A DNA stretch of 56,602 nucleotides from contig JANWLE010000054.1 in NCBI GenBank assembly GCA_025451035.1, forward strand, positions 1-56,602. Direction: 5' to 3'. Of this stretch, positions 7,987-13,803 are shown in pieces (positions within the stretch are counted from its first letter, which is position 1; each line of letters starts with the position of its first letter). The translations under genes were made by a program, and so were the position numbers. The notes beneath the pieces were generated by a model. The model searched no databases. It was not told the DNA's origin and was given only the letters and a program-made list of their open reading frames with translations. The stretch comes from Solirubrobacteraceae bacterium. GTDB lineage: Bacteria; Actinomycetota; Thermoleophilia; Solirubrobacterales; Solirubrobacteraceae.

Positions 7987-9867
7987 GTGGCCCTCGCTCG
8001 AGACGGCTGCATGGCCTCCTCATCGAGCCTCTTTGAGGCGAACCTCTCTCCGGATAGCTGGCTAGGATCACGGTCCGTGTCAACTCCACCCGCAGACGCG
8101 TCCCAGTCAGCCGACGAGCGTCGCGAGGCGCTCAAGGATCTCTACAAGCTCACACACGCCTGCGAGCGCTGCACCGAGCTGGCCGCCACGCGCAAGACGG
8201 TCGTCTTCGGGGCGGGCAACGCCGATGCGGACCTCATGTTCGTGGGGGAGGCGCCCGGCGCCAGCGAGGACGAGCAGGGGCTGCCGTTCGTCGGTCAGGC
8301 CGGCAAGCTCCTGGAGAAGCTGCTGGGAGAGATCGGCCTGGAGCGCAAGGACGTCTTTATCTGCAACACCCTCAAGTGCCTAAGGCACAACTCTTTGGTT
8401 CAGCTCGGCGATGGCTCGTGGGAGCGCATCGGGAGGCTGGTTCGCTCGCGCTACTCGGGCGAGGTCATGTCGGTCGACGAGCGAGGCATGCTGGTTCGTC
8501 GCCGTGTTACCGGCTGGCATGCCACCCCGCTCGCCGGTCGTCGTGTGTTTCGTCTCACCTACCGATCCTGCAAGAACGCAGAAGCCGGCGGTGTGGGCAT
8601 AGAGCTCACGGGCGATCACCCCGTCCTGACCGAGCGTGGATACGTTCCGGTCGAAGAGCTCCGGTCTTCAGATCGGATCGCGACGGGCCAAGGCCTCAGC
8701 GCGCTCGCCGCAGATGTGGTGTACGGGTCAGTTCTCGGGGACGGCTGTTTGCAGAGCAAGTATTCATGCCTCAGCTTCTCCCATTCTCAGAGGCAGGCCG
8801 AGTACGCGCGCTTCAAGGCGGATCTGCTCGCCGAGTTGACCACGGAGGTGGAGGAGCGCGAAGTTGCCGCGGTCGTGGGTGGCCGCGGCCACGGAGTCGT
8901 GCTGGTGCGAACGCTTGCGCATCGGGCTCTGCGCGTGATACGTCAGGATTTCTACCGGCCCCATAAGGTGGTTCCGTCGTGGATGGCCGACGAGCTGAAC
9001 GCGCGGATACTGGCTTTTTGGTTCATGGACGATGGCTACATGCGGACTCGGAGTGGAGGACGGCGACCGCTGGCCGAGATCGCCACGGTCGGATTCTCAG
9101 ACGGTGACCTACAGATTCTGTTGCGTGGGCTTCTGCGACTGGGTCTGCCAGCGAAGGCGATGCGCAGACGGCTCTATTTCGACGTGCCGACCACCGAGCG
9201 TCTGAGCGAGTTGATCGCTCCCTATATCCCAGCGTCCATGCGATACAAGCTTCACCCCGACGTCGAGGCGCGGATTCCGTTCGATCCCTCGCGTCTTGAT
9301 CGCGGTCCGACCGCAGTTCTCTATGACGAGGTCGAGGTCGAGGACATCACCGAACACGAGCGGTATGACGTCACGTTCTTCTGCATAGACGTGGAGGACA
9401 CACACAACTTCGTGACCGCAGGAGGCGTGGTCCACAACTGCCGTCCCCCAGGCAACCGTGACCCGCAGCCGGTGGAGATCGAGAACTGTCGGGAGTATCT
9501 GTACCGTCAGGTCGAGCTGATTCAGCCCAAGGTGATCTGCACGCTGGGCAACTTCTCCACCAAGCTCCTGCGCGGCGACACGACCGGGATCACGCGCCTG
9601 CACGGGCAGCCGGAGGTGCTCACGCTCGGCCGGCGTGCCGTGCGCCTGTACCCAATCTTCCACCCTGCCGCCGCGCTTTACACACCCAGGATGCTCGAGA
9701 CTCTGCGGGAGGACTTCAAGCGGATACCGGAGCTGCTGGCATTGGGTGTCCTCGAGCAGCCGGAGTTCCTGGAGGAGGTTCCCGAGCCTGCGCTCGAGGC
9801 GGAGGAACCCGAGCAGCCCAGCGACGGTGAGCAGCCGGCCGAGCCCGATCAGCTGGGTCTTTTCTGA
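7987..9867 (+). CDS. Family 4 uracil-DNA glycosylase precursor with intein
   Basis: The 626-aa precursor splits into an N-extein (residues 1-130), an intein (131-484) and a C-extein (485-626). The joined 272-aa exteins form a thermostable-type UDG that removes uracil from DNA: motif [12 protein letters not shown] near 88, motif HPAAALY late, and four Fe-S cysteines C59, C62, C485 and C501. After splicing the junction reads TLKCRPPGNR, the canonical family 4 sequence. The open frame starts at a GTG (7987), but GTG at 8077 lies 8 bases after a TAGGAT box and may be the true leaderless start; it would remove 30 residues with no family similarity. The C-terminal tail is Glu/Pro-rich. Confidence 0.93.
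8063..8068 (+). promoter_or_regulatory. -10 box (TAGGAT) for UDG, leaderless from GTG 8077
   Basis: TAGGAT ends eight bases before an in-frame GTG at 8077. This matches the spacing seen at other genes in the window and argues for that start rather than 7987. Confidence 0.45.
8377..9438 (+). other. Intein with LAGLIDADG homing endonuclease (354 aa)
   Basis: The intein begins at Cys131 ([13 protein letters not shown], block A) and ends VVHN484 before Cys485. Block B has TGDH at residues 208-211. The endonuclease core has two LAGLIDADG helices, VYGSVLGDG (245-253) and [10 protein letters not shown] (341-350), each with its acidic residue. Block F is [15 protein letters not shown] and block G is GGVVHN/C. 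All nucleophiles (Cys1, block B His, penultimate His, terminal Asn, Cys+1) are present, so it looks splicing- and homing-competent. It lies exactly at a cluster-ligand cysteine of the host enzyme. Confidence 0.95.
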
Positions 9868-10006: not shown

Positions 10007-10014
10007 TGTGAAGC

Positions 10015-10020
10015 TAGAGT
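10015..10020 (+). promoter_or_regulatory. -10 box (TAGAGT) of the tsaE operon
   Basis: TAGAGT directly follows the UDG terminator and ends seven bases before a GTG at 10028. The same TAGAGT-N7-start arrangement occurs before rex and before the ORF at 34383. Confidence 0.5.
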
Positions 10021-10027
10021 TCAGGAC

Positions 10028-10111
10028 GTGCCCGTCACGAGACTCGAGCAGATGCGGGCCTGCGCTCGAGCAGGTCGTGCCCAGGAGCCGTGTGATGGGC
10101 CACTCGTCTGA
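10028..10111 (+). CDS. Possible 27-aa leader peptide upstream of tsaE
   Basis: A GTG seven bases after the TAGAGT box opens a 27-codon frame that ends at TGA 10109-10111, overlapping the tsaE start (10095) in another frame. The tsaE Shine-Dalgarno AGGAG lies inside it. It could couple or tune tsaE translation. There is no protein similarity to support it; the case rests on promoter spacing alone. Confidence 0.3.
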   Translation: MPVTRLEQMRACARAGRAQEPCDGPLV

Positions 10112-10550
10112 CCAACGGGCGGTGGCTCGCAGCTGGACCCTTGAAACATCCTCGGCGCAGGAGACAGAGGGCCTTGCCGCCGAGCTCGCACCGATGCTGA
10201 AAGCCGGTGACGTCGTCCTGCTCAAGGGCGAGCTCGGAACCGGCAAGACGACTTTCGTAAGGGGCGTGGTTCACGCGCTGGGAATCAAAGATGCTGTGAA
10301 CAGCCCTACGTTCAGTATCGGACACCGCTATGTCGGCGAGCACACAACCGTTTCGCATCTGGACCTGTATCGCCTGGGGATGCTCGAGGAAGAGGACCCA
10401 GGGCTCTTGGGCGACTACCTCACGGGCGAGGAGATCGCGCTGATCGAGTGGCCGGACGCCGCCCATGGTCTGCTCGGCGAGCCGCGGCTTGAGATCAAGA
10501 TCAGCCACCGCGGTCAGGACAAGCGGCTGATCGAGGTGTCACAGCGATGA
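10095..10550 (+). CDS. tsaE: tRNA t6A biosynthesis ATPase TsaE
   Basis: TsaE is the small ATPase that resets the TsaB-TsaD complex during t6A37 modification of ANN-decoding tRNAs. Walker A GELGTGKTTF is near residue 47 of the 151-aa reading, followed by the family segments SPTFSIGHRY, HLDLYRL and IEWPD. The ATG at 10095 has AGGAG seven bases upstream and gives the usual family length; the open frame extends 29 codons further upstream without similarity. It is the first of four t6A/ribosome-maturation genes, overlapping tsaB by 4 bp. Confidence 0.93.
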   Translation: MGHSSDQRAVARSWTLETSSAQETEGLAAELAPMLKAGDVVLLKGELGTGKTTFVRGVVHALGIKDAVNSPTFSIGHRYVGEHTTVSHLDLYRLGMLEEEDPGLLGDYLTGEEIALIEWPDAAHGLLGEPRLEIKISHRGQDKRLIEVSQR

Positions 10551-11245
10551 CCGTCACGCTCTCCTTCGACACCGCAACCCCCGCCACCGCCGTCGCGCTG
10601 CGGCGGCCCGACGGCCAAATCCTTGAAGCGCGCGACGACCCGCCGCCAGGCGCTCGCCCCGGGCATGCGACCCGGCTCTTGGTGCTCGCCGACGGCCTGC
10701 TACGGGAGGCCTCGATCGATTGGCGCGAACTCGAACTGCTCGCGGTGGGACTGGGCCCCGGCACGTTCACCGGCCTGCGCATCGGCGTCTCCAGCGCCCG
10801 CGCGCTCGCACAATCGCTAAACGTGGGCGTCAGGGGGGTGTCGAGCCTCGCGGCACTGGCGCACGGCGCGCTGAGCGCCGAGGCCACGGCGCAACGTGTG
10901 CTCGCGGTGCTCGACGCGCGCCGCGGCGAGGCGTTCGCGGCAGCCTCTAGCCCCACCGGTGAGCTGTCCGCTCCCCGCGCGCTCGCCCCGGGGCAGCTGC
11001 CGAGCATGCTCGAGACGGCGTGCCGCGAGGACTGGCTTGCGATCGGCGACGGGGCCGTCCGCTACGCGGAGATTCTCACCGCCGCAGGCGCACGCGTGCC
11101 CGCGGGCGACTCGCCGCTGCATCTCGTCAGCGCGCGTGCGATATGCGAACTAGCTGACAGCGTGCCTGCCGCCGAGCCGGACCAGCTCGTCCCCGAATAC
11201 TGCCGCAGACCGGACGCGGAGATCGCGCTAGAGGGCGCAGCGTGA
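10547..11245 (+). CDS. tsaB: tRNA t6A biosynthesis protein TsaB
   Basis: TsaB is the ASKHA-fold scaffold that dimerises with TsaD for transfer of threonylcarbamoyl to tRNA A37. The 232-aa protein has the N-terminal LSFDTATPATAVAL motif and the diagnostic GLGPGTFTGLRIGVSSARALAQ near residue 67, then AVLDARRGEAFAA. The C-terminal half is more variable, as in the family. It overlaps tsaE and rimI by four bases each, so the operon is strongly coupled. Confidence 0.93.
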   Translation: MTVTLSFDTATPATAVALRRPDGQILEARDDPPPGARPGHATRLLVLADGLLREASIDWRELELLAVGLGPGTFTGLRIGVSSARALAQSLNVGVRGVSSLAALAHGALSAEATAQRVLAVLDARRGEAFAAASSPTGELSAPRALAPGQLPSMLETACREDWLAIGDGAVRYAEILTAAGARVPAGDSPLHLVSARAICELADSVPAAEPDQLVPEYCRRPDAEIALEGAA

Positions 11246-11769
11246 TGAGCGAGCCGACCGCCGCCACCTCTCGCGAGAGCCACCCGCTCGTCGAAATCCG
11301 CCCGCTCAGCTACCAGGACCTGCCGCAGGTGATCACGATCGAGCGGCGGGCTTTCCCGACGCCATGGTCGCTTGCGATGTTCGTGCTCGAGCTCTCCAAG
11401 ACATCAGGCATATGCCTGGCAGCCTTCCGCCAAGAGGAGCTGCTGGGTTACACGATCTGCTCGCGCTATGAGACGGTCTGGCACATCATGAATATCGCTG
11501 TCTCGCCAGAGCACCGCCGTCGTGGGATCGCCACGAAGCTGCTCGCCGAGCTGTACCGGCGCGCAGGGGGGGACCAGGCTCGCTACACGCTGGAGGTTCG
11601 GCGCACCAACCAGGAGGCGATCAACCTGTATGAAGTGCAGGGCTTTCGCCCCGCCGGGATGCGCCGCCGCTACTACCAGGACAACGGGGAGGACGCGCTG
11701 ATCATGTGGCGTACCCCGGGGACGCTCGCCGGCGTGCTCGATGACGTACCGAACCCGGGGTTCGTATGA
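11242..11769 (+). CDS. rimI: GNAT N-acetyltransferase RimI
   Basis: RimI acetylates the N-terminus of ribosomal protein S18 and related substrates. The 175-aa protein has the GNAT acetyl-CoA loop (EHRRRGIATKLL, near residue 92), the preceding IMNIAVSP strand, and NQEAINLYEVQGF plus RRYYQDNGEDALIM, which are characteristic of RimI. An extra N-terminal stretch of about 18 residues precedes the domain. The position between tsaB and tsaD is the common actinobacterial order. Confidence 0.9.
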   Translation: MMSEPTAATSRESHPLVEIRPLSYQDLPQVITIERRAFPTPWSLAMFVLELSKTSGICLAAFRQEELLGYTICSRYETVWHIMNIAVSPEHRRRGIATKLLAELYRRAGGDQARYTLEVRRTNQEAINLYEVQGFRPAGMRRRYYQDNGEDALIMWRTPGTLAGVLDDVPNPGFV

Positions 11770-12824
11770 GCGCCGACGCCAGTCGGGCGCTTGTGCTCGC
11801 GATCGAGACTAGCTGCGACGACACGTGCGCCGCCGTCGTCGACTGGCAGGGCCACGTCCGCTCGAATGTGATCTCCTCCCAGGGCGTGCACGAGCGCTTC
11901 GGCGGGGTGGTGCCGGAGATCGCCTCCCGCCACCACATGCAGCTCGTCAACGTGATCGTCGCGGCGGCGCTACAGCAGGCATCCGTGACGCTGGACGAGA
12001 TCTCGCTCGTCGCGGTCACCCAGGGACCGGGCCTGATCGGCGCGCTGCTCGTCGGGCTTTCCACCGCCAAGGCACTCGCCGCCGCTCGCCGCCTGCCGCT
12101 CGCTGCCGTCGACCACCTCCAGGGTCACGTCGCCGCGAACTTCCTGCAGGCGCTCGAGCCCGGCAAGTCGGGTGTGCTTGAGCCCCCTTTCTTGTGCCTG
12201 ATCGCAAGCGGCGGGCACACACTGCTGGCGGCCGTACGCGACCACGACGGCTTTGAGGTTCTCGGCCGCACGCTCGACGACGCCGCCGGCGAGGCGTTCG
12301 ACAAGGGCGCGCGGATGCTCGGCCTCGGCTTCCCCGGCGGCCCTGCGCTCCAGCGCCTGGCCGAGGCCGGGGATCCACGCGCGTTCGCTTTCCCCGGATC
12401 AGCCGAGCACCCGCGCGCCGGGCGACGCGGCGCGCTGCACGACAGCCTCGACTTTTCCTTCGCGGGACTGAAGACATCGCTGCTGTACAAGCTCAAGGAG
12501 CTCGGCGAGGCGCGCTCTGGGGAACGCGCGGCGGACCTCGCGGCTTCCTACCAGGCCGCGATCGTGGAGAGCCTGATGGTCCGCGTCGAGCGGGCGCTGG
12601 AGCGCAGCGGGCTCGAGCACCTGGCGGTCGGCGGCGGCGTCGCCGCCAACGGCGAGCTGCGCAGGCGTCTGGCGGAGCTCGGCGCCGCCGTGCACGTCCC
12701 GCCGGCGGTGCTCTGCACCGACAACGCCGCGATGATCGCGAGCGCCGCCCGCTTCGGCGCGCAGCTCGAGTACCCCGCCTACCTGACGCTCGACGCGTAT
12801 GCCACGGGGGAGCGTGCAATGTGA
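11766..12824 (+). CDS. tsaD: tRNA t6A transferase TsaD
   Basis: TsaD catalyses transfer of the threonylcarbamoyl group to A37 of tRNA. It is a 352-aa ASKHA metalloprotein. AIETSCDDTCAAVV near residue 12, the metal-binding SRHHMQLVN helix near 59, TQGPGLIGALLVG near 82, IASGGHT near 143, DDAAGEAFDKGARMLGLG and the late GGGVAANGELRRRL are all present. It overlaps rimI and the following glutaredoxin gene by four bases each. Confidence 0.95.
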   Translation: MSADASRALVLAIETSCDDTCAAVVDWQGHVRSNVISSQGVHERFGGVVPEIASRHHMQLVNVIVAAALQQASVTLDEISLVAVTQGPGLIGALLVGLSTAKALAAARRLPLAAVDHLQGHVAANFLQALEPGKSGVLEPPFLCLIASGGHTLLAAVRDHDGFEVLGRTLDDAAGEAFDKGARMLGLGFPGGPALQRLAEAGDPRAFAFPGSAEHPRAGRRGALHDSLDFSFAGLKTSLLYKLKELGEARSGERAADLAASYQAAIVESLMVRVERALERSGLEHLAVGGGVAANGELRRRLAELGAAVHVPPAVLCTDNAAMIASAARFGAQLEYPAYLTLDAYATGERAM

Positions 12825-13117
12825 GGCGCGTGACCGTCTACTCAAAGCCCGACTGCCATCTCTGCCAGCAGGCGATCGGGCGCCTCCAGGCGCTCTCCAC
12901 GGAGCTTTCCTTCGAGCTGACCGAGCTCGACATCACGCTGGATGAGGCGCTGCACCGCGCCTATTTCGAGCGCATCCCGGTCATCGCGCTCGACGGCGAG
13001 GAGCTCTTTGACTACTTCGTCGACGAGCGGATTCTGCGCGCGAGATTGAGCGCTGGAGCCCAGCCGCGGCCCGAGGGGGGATCCTGCCCCGAGCATCCTC
13101 TAGAGTCACGGCGATGA
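12821..13117 (+). CDS. Glutaredoxin family thiol oxidoreductase
   Basis: A 98-aa protein with a thioredoxin fold. VTVYSKPDCHLC places the redox pair at Cys12 and Cys15; RIPVIALDGEELF has the cis-proline loop. It matches the DUF836/glutaredoxin-like group, which lacks a known dedicated partner. It lies between tsaD and rex, overlapping both by four bases, so thiol redox and NADH/NAD sensing are co-expressed. About 15 polar residues at the C-terminus lie outside the fold. Confidence 0.85.
   Translation: MRRVTVYSKPDCHLCQQAIGRLQALSTELSFELTELDITLDEALHRAYFERIPVIALDGEELFDYFVDERILRARLSAGAQPRPEGGSCPEHPLESRR
13101..13106 (+). promoter_or_regulatory. Internal -10 box (TAGAGT) for rex
   Basis: TAGAGT inside the glutaredoxin 3' end stops seven bases before the rex ATG at 13114, suggesting rex also has its own leaderless promoter. 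Confidence 0.4.
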
Positions 13118-13803
13118 CGCGTCAAGATCTTGTGGGCCACGTCGCCTCAAACAGCTCGGACAACCACGATGGTGGCGAGGGCATGCCCGAGCGCCTCTCG
13201 CTCGGGGTCGCCGCTCGCTTGTCGCGCTACCTGCAGGTGCTAACCCAGGCCAAGAAGATGGGCAAGGAGACGATCTCCTCCAAGGAGCTCTCCGACTACA
13301 CGCACGTCAACTCGACCCAGATCCGTCGGGACCTGTCGGGCTTTGGCAAGTTCGGCAAGCGTGGCGTCGGCTACAACGTCGAGTCGCTGGTCTCGCAGAT
13401 CCGCAAGATTCTGCGTACGGCCGGGCAGCACAACATTGCGCTGCTGGGCGCGGGCCATCTCGGCAAGGCGATCGCCTCCTCTGACATATTTGCCGACCAC
13501 GGCTTCCGCGTCGTTGCGATCTTCGACTCAGACCCCGTTAAGATCGGCACCGAGGTCGGCAACCAGGTGGTGCGCGACATCTCCGATCTGCACCAGCTGG
13601 TCGAGGAAGAGGACATCGTCGTCGGTGTGCTGGCGGTGCCCAGCCACGCCTCGCAGAAGCTTGCGGACGAGCTGGTGAGGGCGGGCGTGAAGATCATCTT
13701 CAACTACTCTGAATCGCTGCTGGTAGTACCACCCGAGGTGACGGTCCACACCTCGAGTCCCGCCGTGGACCTCCTCTACGCACTCTACTTCTACCTGACC
13801 TGA
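13114..13803 (+). CDS. rex: Redox-sensing transcriptional repressor Rex
   Basis: Rex represses respiratory and fermentative genes and leaves DNA when NADH rises. The 229-aa protein has an N-terminal winged helix (RLSRYLQVLTQ, then STQIRRDLSGFGKFGKRG near residue 68) and a Rossmann domain with GAGHLGKAI near 111, then FDSDPVKIG and the C-terminal swapped helix VDLLYALYFYL. The ATG at 13114 overlaps the glutaredoxin stop; an ATG at 13183 would also give a full HTH. No classical Rex operator was found in the window. Confidence 0.95.
   Translation: MTRQDLVGHVASNSSDNHDGGEGMPERLSLGVAARLSRYLQVLTQAKKMGKETISSKELSDYTHVNSTQIRRDLSGFGKFGKRGVGYNVESLVSQIRKILRTAGQHNIALLGAGHLGKAIASSDIFADHGFRVVAIFDSDPVKIGTEVGNQVVRDISDLHQLVEEEDIVVGVLAVPSHASQKLADELVRAGVKIIFNYSESLLVVPPEVTVHTSSPAVDLLYALYFYLT

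Follow-up and report, generated by a model that had tools for sequence, protein, structure and literature searches.

The family 4 uracil-DNA glycosylase (UDG) gene of a Solirubrobacteraceae bacterium very probably contains a class 1, self-splicing intein of the homing type, located directly before the codon of an invariant iron-sulfur (Fe-S) cysteine, and this intein would be a mobile element that parasitizes a residue of its host. The gene lies in a window of 56,602 nucleotides, the whole stretch of DNA that was analyzed, and all features described below are on its forward (+) strand.

The interrupted glycosylase gene and its insert

The precursor reading frame (7987..9867; 626 codons, no stop) is taken to begin at the GTG at 7987, from which the residue numbers C59, C62, C485 and C501 are counted. 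The start codon is uncertain: the true start may be the GTG at 8077, and the first possible start in another intein-bearing genome (G052) falls near the same place. With numbering from 7987, the intein coordinates (8377..9438) and the four cysteine numbers of the earlier, sequence-only reading are correct. When the flanks were searched apart from the insert, the N-extein (7987..8376) alone matched positions 1-71 of the type-4 UDG model TIGR00758 (E 1.5e-25) and the C-extein (9439..9864) alone matched positions 72-171 (E 1.1e-26), leaving neither gap nor overlap between them. The whole reading frame scores 183.0 bits with TIGR00758 (curated cut-off 125.3) and 193.9 bits with the equivalog NF040953, below its cut-off of 250. 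Judged from these profiles, the host is a type-4 (family 4) UDG interrupted between TIGR00758 positions 71 and 72. Its family 4 features include four cysteines at Thermus-like spacing, predicted to hold a cluster, together with GEAPG (motif A, 8245-8259) in the N-extein and HPAAAL (motif B, 9661-9678) in the C-extein, the motif names following the accessible part of PMC10359453. For annotation, a UDG interrupted in this way mostly misses the family 4 cut-off in a six-frame search, with one of nine genomes carrying an intein at the UDG site giving a match above it.

The codons of C59 and C62 (CxxC, 8161..8172), C485 (9439..9441) and C501 (9487..9489) pair with residues 13, 16, 84 and 100 of 1ui0, counted from the alignments, which we take to be the cluster-binding cysteines of the Thermus UDG. 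In alignments with solved UDGs, the extein junction corresponds to residues 83/84 of 1ui0 and 85/86 of 4zbx, and the C-extein begins at the third ligand cysteine. The available text of PMC7412058 gives 1ui0 as the Thermus enzyme, and that of PMC5295032 describes four coordinating cysteines in UDGs of families 4 and 5. Each of the 15 intein-bearing and 26 intein-free rows keeps all four cysteines. The sequence-only reading had placed the end of the intein directly before the third of the four Fe-S ligands, with a cysteine spacing after splicing like that of the Thermus enzyme, and both statements hold in these alignments. The comparison with intein-free UDGs that it had proposed as a check gave the same answer, the position of C485 being a cysteine, encoded by TGC, in 27 of 27 intein-free relatives (including one row left out of the 26). 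In DNA conservation the insertion site does not stand out: in intein-free relatives the 24-mer at -4..+3 ranks 113 of 169, and the notion that the intein sits in the best conserved stretch of the gene was ruled out.

The insert encodes 354 amino acids, and domain matches and alignment identify it as a predicted class 1 intein. It carries the first nucleophile Cys1 (8377..8379), the block B TxxH (T78 and H81 of the intein; 8608..8619), a cysteine at position 4 of block F (C336; 9382..9384) and the block G His-Asn pair (H353 and N354; 9433..9438), all six residues being invariant across 13 aligned inteins. The Intein_splicing model PF14890 scores 36.4 bits on the insert alone and 34.0 on the whole reading frame (cut-off 35.8), the N-terminal model TIGR01445 scores 22.3 bits, below its cut-off of 24.5, and the C-terminal model TIGR01443 scores 21.8 bits, above its cut-off of 15.6. 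Taken singly, these splicing-domain scores are borderline, but added to the endonuclease match and to the precise interruption of the UDG profile they put the predicted intein far beyond chance. By sequence criteria, Cys1 (13/13) and TxxH (13/13) are present and HN is followed by C485 at +1; the intein is assigned to class 1 because TxxH occurs with Cys1. The earlier claim of a complete intein with intact splicing and endonuclease motifs is confirmed by the domain matches, the invariant residues and the LGDG and MDDG motifs.

Among the strings caught by a pattern search, block F position 4 is cysteine in all 15 distinct ones from the UDG site (14 bacterial, one phage; UDG hosts judged from the flanking sequence displayed) and aspartate in all 24 from RecA reading frames and in both others. 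The block F cysteine thus marks the UDG-site inteins together with the phage PolA inteins looked at. It is not odd in itself because, in the part of PMC4031507 available, cysteine is the second commonest residue at this position after aspartate. No second related intein was found in the genome of the window. As a mark of recent import, G+C content is weak, with 62% in the intein versus 66% in the exteins, and 71% versus 72-74% in G052. Downstream of udg, the window (10008-13803) contains tsaE, tsaB, a rimI-like gene (labelled by reading), tsaD and the gene for the redox-sensing repressor Rex; the last lies 3.2 kb downstream of udg and was given no weight for a redox reading.

Decay of the homing endonuclease and distribution of the intein

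The LAGLIDADG homing endonuclease (8716..9141, intein residues 114-255) matches PF03161 (LAGLIDADG_2) with an E-value of 8.5e-19, and both catalytic aspartate motifs, VLGDG (8731-8745) and MDDG (9025-9036), are present. Both motifs occur in seven of 14 copies, with one or both altered or deleted in the other seven. Mini-inteins of 191, 175 and 148 amino acids and one partly deleted copy (282 amino acids) retain the splicing residues. We compared dN/dS (Nei-Gojobori) in nine pairs, where several dS above 1 and some short stretches make the values indicative. In four damaged-endonuclease pairs among L050, L051, L053 and L055, the endonuclease gave 0.48-1.38 (in two pairs from 24 remnant codons), the N-terminal splicing part 0.20-0.29, the C-terminal splicing part 0.16-0.58 and the exteins 0.07-0.26; in L050/L051 the C-terminal splicing value is above that of the endonuclease. 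The three intact-motif pairs (the window with L045, the window with G052, and G052 with L045) gave 0.16-0.35 for the endonuclease, 0.12-0.34 for splicing parts and 0.22-0.59 for exteins. The endonuclease remnant in the window/L054 pair (35 codons) gave 0.47, and the window/L049 pair gave 0.23. Over all nine pairs, exteins and splicing parts range from 0.07 to 0.59. Splicing appears to be kept despite endonuclease decay because its loss would destroy the UDG.

The intein was found at the UDG site in at least 16 bacterial genomes, mostly Actinomycetota, plus one gammaproteobacterial and one deltaproteobacterial metagenome-assembled genome (MAG). The 16 are G000, G052, G011 (=L054), G106 (=L045), G139, G179 (=L049), G415 (=L048), G466 (=L069), L046, L047, L050, L051, L052, L053, L055 and L056, with the identities of L054, L045, L049 and L048 with G-labelled genomes confirmed by sequence; MAGs make up the majority of the named records. 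The distribution counts are lower bounds, based in several groups on the best few candidates per genome and, in large groups, on samples: at least six of 146 genomes in the family of the window (the G139 copy ending at a contig end), at least four of 399 in its class and at least two of 396 in its phylum, where seven further weak matches were left out of the count. In the genus of the window, one of the 23 other genomes (G011) has the intein, while two of the 23 gave no UDG match. The centre genome alone accounts for the intein in the class of G803/L053 (at least 1/296), the order of G798/L046 (at least 1/53), the class of G802/L052 (at least 1/8) and the order of G800/L050 (at least 1/198). 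A scan of genome contigs gave 13 loci, 12 of them in UDG, with hosts in Solirubrobacterales, Candidatus Solirubrobacter pratensis, Thermoleophilia, Acidimicrobiia and kin, ‘Actinomycetes’, Gammaproteobacteria and Deltaproteobacteria. The remaining locus, L057, is a partial intein in an apparent phage-like gene and not a UDG. In the deltaproteobacterial MAG (L052, 1-1711), the deposited contig has two frames within the intein, which may be a sequencing error or a real break.

Inteins related to the query were also found in other hosts. Among 77 loci, 64 are in RecA, nine in UDG (seven genomes) and four in neither. The nearest non-UDG matches in the family of the window are RecA inteins in four genomes (E 4e-27 to 1e-30), and query-related RecA inteins (L125-L144) occur in 20 of the 296 genomes sampled from the class to which G803, an Acidimicrobiales genome, belongs. 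One RecA reading frame (L070, in G775) has three intein-type C-termini, in which HN is followed by TTVALHA, SPETTPGG or CAPPFRQ, and so apparently contains three inteins. Plasmids gave two matches below 60% identity, annotated as RNA ligase and hypothetical protein, and named phages gave 10 matches below 30% identity, those with an annotation being labelled DNA polymerase or RNA ligase.

In phages, an intein lies at the equivalent position within a UDG-like domain in two distinct IMG/VR proteins, L098 (=L151) and L152 (identical in L153 and L154). On the N-terminal side of the intein, the PF03167 match extends to position 55 and 54, respectively, as compared with 57 in the window, and on the C-terminal side there is a DNA_pol_A domain (3e-49 and 4e-44). 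The residues following the intein in L152 match PF03167 positions 68-124 at 20.2 bits, below the cut-off of 24.3. The L098 reading frame (L098:4722-9890) encodes 1723 amino acids with a UDG-like domain, a DNA polymerase A and two LAGLIDADG/intein regions, of which the first occupies the site of the Fe-S cysteine in the UDG. L155-L161, considered as further UDG-site copies, are located in other proteins. The phage PolA inteins L099, L100 (=L101 and L102 in the part shown) and L162 lie at another site and have the block F cysteine, and L099 and L100 have the start VQLGDGSW in common with the UDG inteins. Site-specific placement, inferred in the sequence-only reading, is thus supported: 16 bacterial genomes and two different phage UDG-PolA fusions share the insertion site.

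The UDG-site inteins of bacteria and phages cluster apart from the phage PolA, RecA and RNA-ligase inteins at a support of 94/89, short of the star given by the tool, and the bacterial UDG-site inteins alone have support of 89/81; a clade of Actinomycetota inteins only is not rejected (p 0.163). On an extein tree of 41 rows, intein presence is sporadic, with six changes of which at least four are forced, a count that depends on the sample, the intein-free rows being from the family of the window only. The gammaproteobacterial copy (L046), on a contig carrying ilvC, pssA and leuA (names read from matches), is 63% identical to the window in the intein and 45% in the exteins, and therefore the UDG-site intein seems, from its sequence, to move between lineages. 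Intein and extein identities to the window are 64% and 54% for L069, 64-72% and 65-84% for the Thermoleophilia group (G052, L045, L048, L049 and L054), and 46-61% and 54-61% for L047, L050, L051, L053, L055 and L056.

Probable requirement for splicing and alternative readings

From the motifs and the known chemistry of class 1 inteins, the precursor would be translated as a single chain, Cys1 would attack the junction at Lys130, the N-extein would pass to host Cys485, and cyclization of intein Asn354 would yield a mature UDG that has all four cluster cysteines. The LAGLIDADG domain, with its catalytic residues present, would presumably cut udg alleles that lack the intein, allowing the element to be copied into them. 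Such an element may have spread between lineages, possibly with phages, with the endonuclease decaying in some lineages and splicing being retained. The sequence-only reading had argued that an unspliced precursor forms no cluster and so has no UDG activity. UDG activity probably does depend on splicing, because motifs A and B sit on opposite sides of the intein. The route through the cluster is weaker because, in the accessible part of PMC5295032, disruption of the cluster cysteines costs UDG activity only in part. Two further UDG-superfamily genes in the genome (labelled C62 and C69, the former read as family 5 from its GLAPA motif) may also soften the need for the interrupted gene.

One alternative takes the intein to be a redox switch, in which oxidation would form a disulfide among Cys1, Cys336 and Cys485, precursor would accumulate, and UDG with its cluster would be released only under reducing conditions. 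These three cysteines do not vary in any of the sets compared, the 148-amino-acid mini-intein L056 has cysteines only at C1 and block F, and the excerpts available of PMC6195587 and PMC10663303 provide precedents in a DnaBi1 disulfide formed under H2O2 and a MoaA N-extein disulfide. However, each thiol is otherwise required, either for splicing chemistry or for the cluster, and the block F cysteine, the second commonest residue at its position (PMC4031507, in part), is also present in PolA inteins of phages, which lie at a different site. An N-extein disulfide like that of MoaA was ruled out, as the N-extein has no conserved cysteine close to the junction (position -5 is Cys in one of 14 intein copies and three of 27 intein-free sequences). 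The two other UDG-superfamily genes and the presence of the intein in just one other genome of the genus also count against a switch, which is without specific support here and which we regard as unlikely. We are equally doubtful of a wider proposal, that one cysteine would serve serially as nucleophile and then as Fe-S ligand, with oxidation or iron-sulfur shortage holding UDG inert, in a module common to bacterial repair genes and phage UDG-polymerase fusions.

That splicing begins at the block F cysteine as in class 3 inteins, leaving Cys1 as a bystander, is suggested by the contrast between cysteine in all UDG-site strings and aspartate in the RecA and other strings. The block F cysteine of class 3 (C336) is indeed present, but the Trp and Thr of the WCT triplet are missing, the window intein having V83 and V352; across the 13 rows, column 83 has no Trp and V352 is invariant. 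Class 3 inteins are defined by having no position-1 nucleophile, and here Cys1 is present, although some WCT inteins retain a residue-1 nucleophile. With TxxH and Cys1 in place and the triplet incomplete (places after the available part of PMC6195587), the class 3 mechanism itself was ruled out and a class 3-like start is very improbable. Least probable is a splicing-dead insert that disrupts udg while its paralogues serve as backup: the two other UDG-superfamily genes would allow it, whereas the conservation of the splicing residues and both exteins, and their dN/dS values in the nine pairs, argue against it. Parasitism of an unchangeable host residue best explains the site, better than regulation does. 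The allelic series of full, decayed and mini-inteins at one Fe-S cysteine codon, found in Actinomycetota, a gammaproteobacterium, a deltaproteobacterium and phage polymerases, is suited to tests of homing, endonuclease loss and redox tuning of splicing at a metal-ligand residue.

Comparison with known inteins

No report of a UDG intein was found in the open-licence literature, in the portions available, and it may be catalogued elsewhere, for example in intein databases. The available portions of PMC7412058, PMC7886860 and PMC5871332 name both UDG and inteins with no UDG intein among them, and ‘uracil’ was not found in that of PMC5050341. By its sequence, the UDG-site intein is of an ordinary kind, a class 1 mobile intein, at a site found in no paper searched. 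Class 1 LAGLIDADG inteins of the RecA/DnaB type are like it in C1, in HN followed by C, S or T at +1, and in the LAGLIDADG domain, but they differ in host protein and site, and the UDG intein has cysteine rather than aspartate in block F. Phage PolA inteins, such as that of the Escherichia phage Gostya9 polymerase, have C1, the block F cysteine, C+1 and the kind of endonuclease in common with it, yet occupy another host site, are 28.5% identical to the window intein and form a separate branch of the tree.

Other known inteins resemble it in the cofactor chemistry of their hosts. MoaA is an Fe-S enzyme. SufB, also an intein host, is an Fe-S assembly protein (PMC8891592, in the part available), and the +1 serine of DnaBi1 is a P-loop serine that contributes to coordinating Mg in the mature protein (PMC6195587, likewise in part), a likeness at the level of a +1 cofactor ligand. 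In contrast to DnaBi1, SufB and MoaA, the UDG-site intein has a +1 cysteine that would be a structural ligand of the Fe-S cluster in a DNA glycosylase, and any redox response of this intein is hypothetical.
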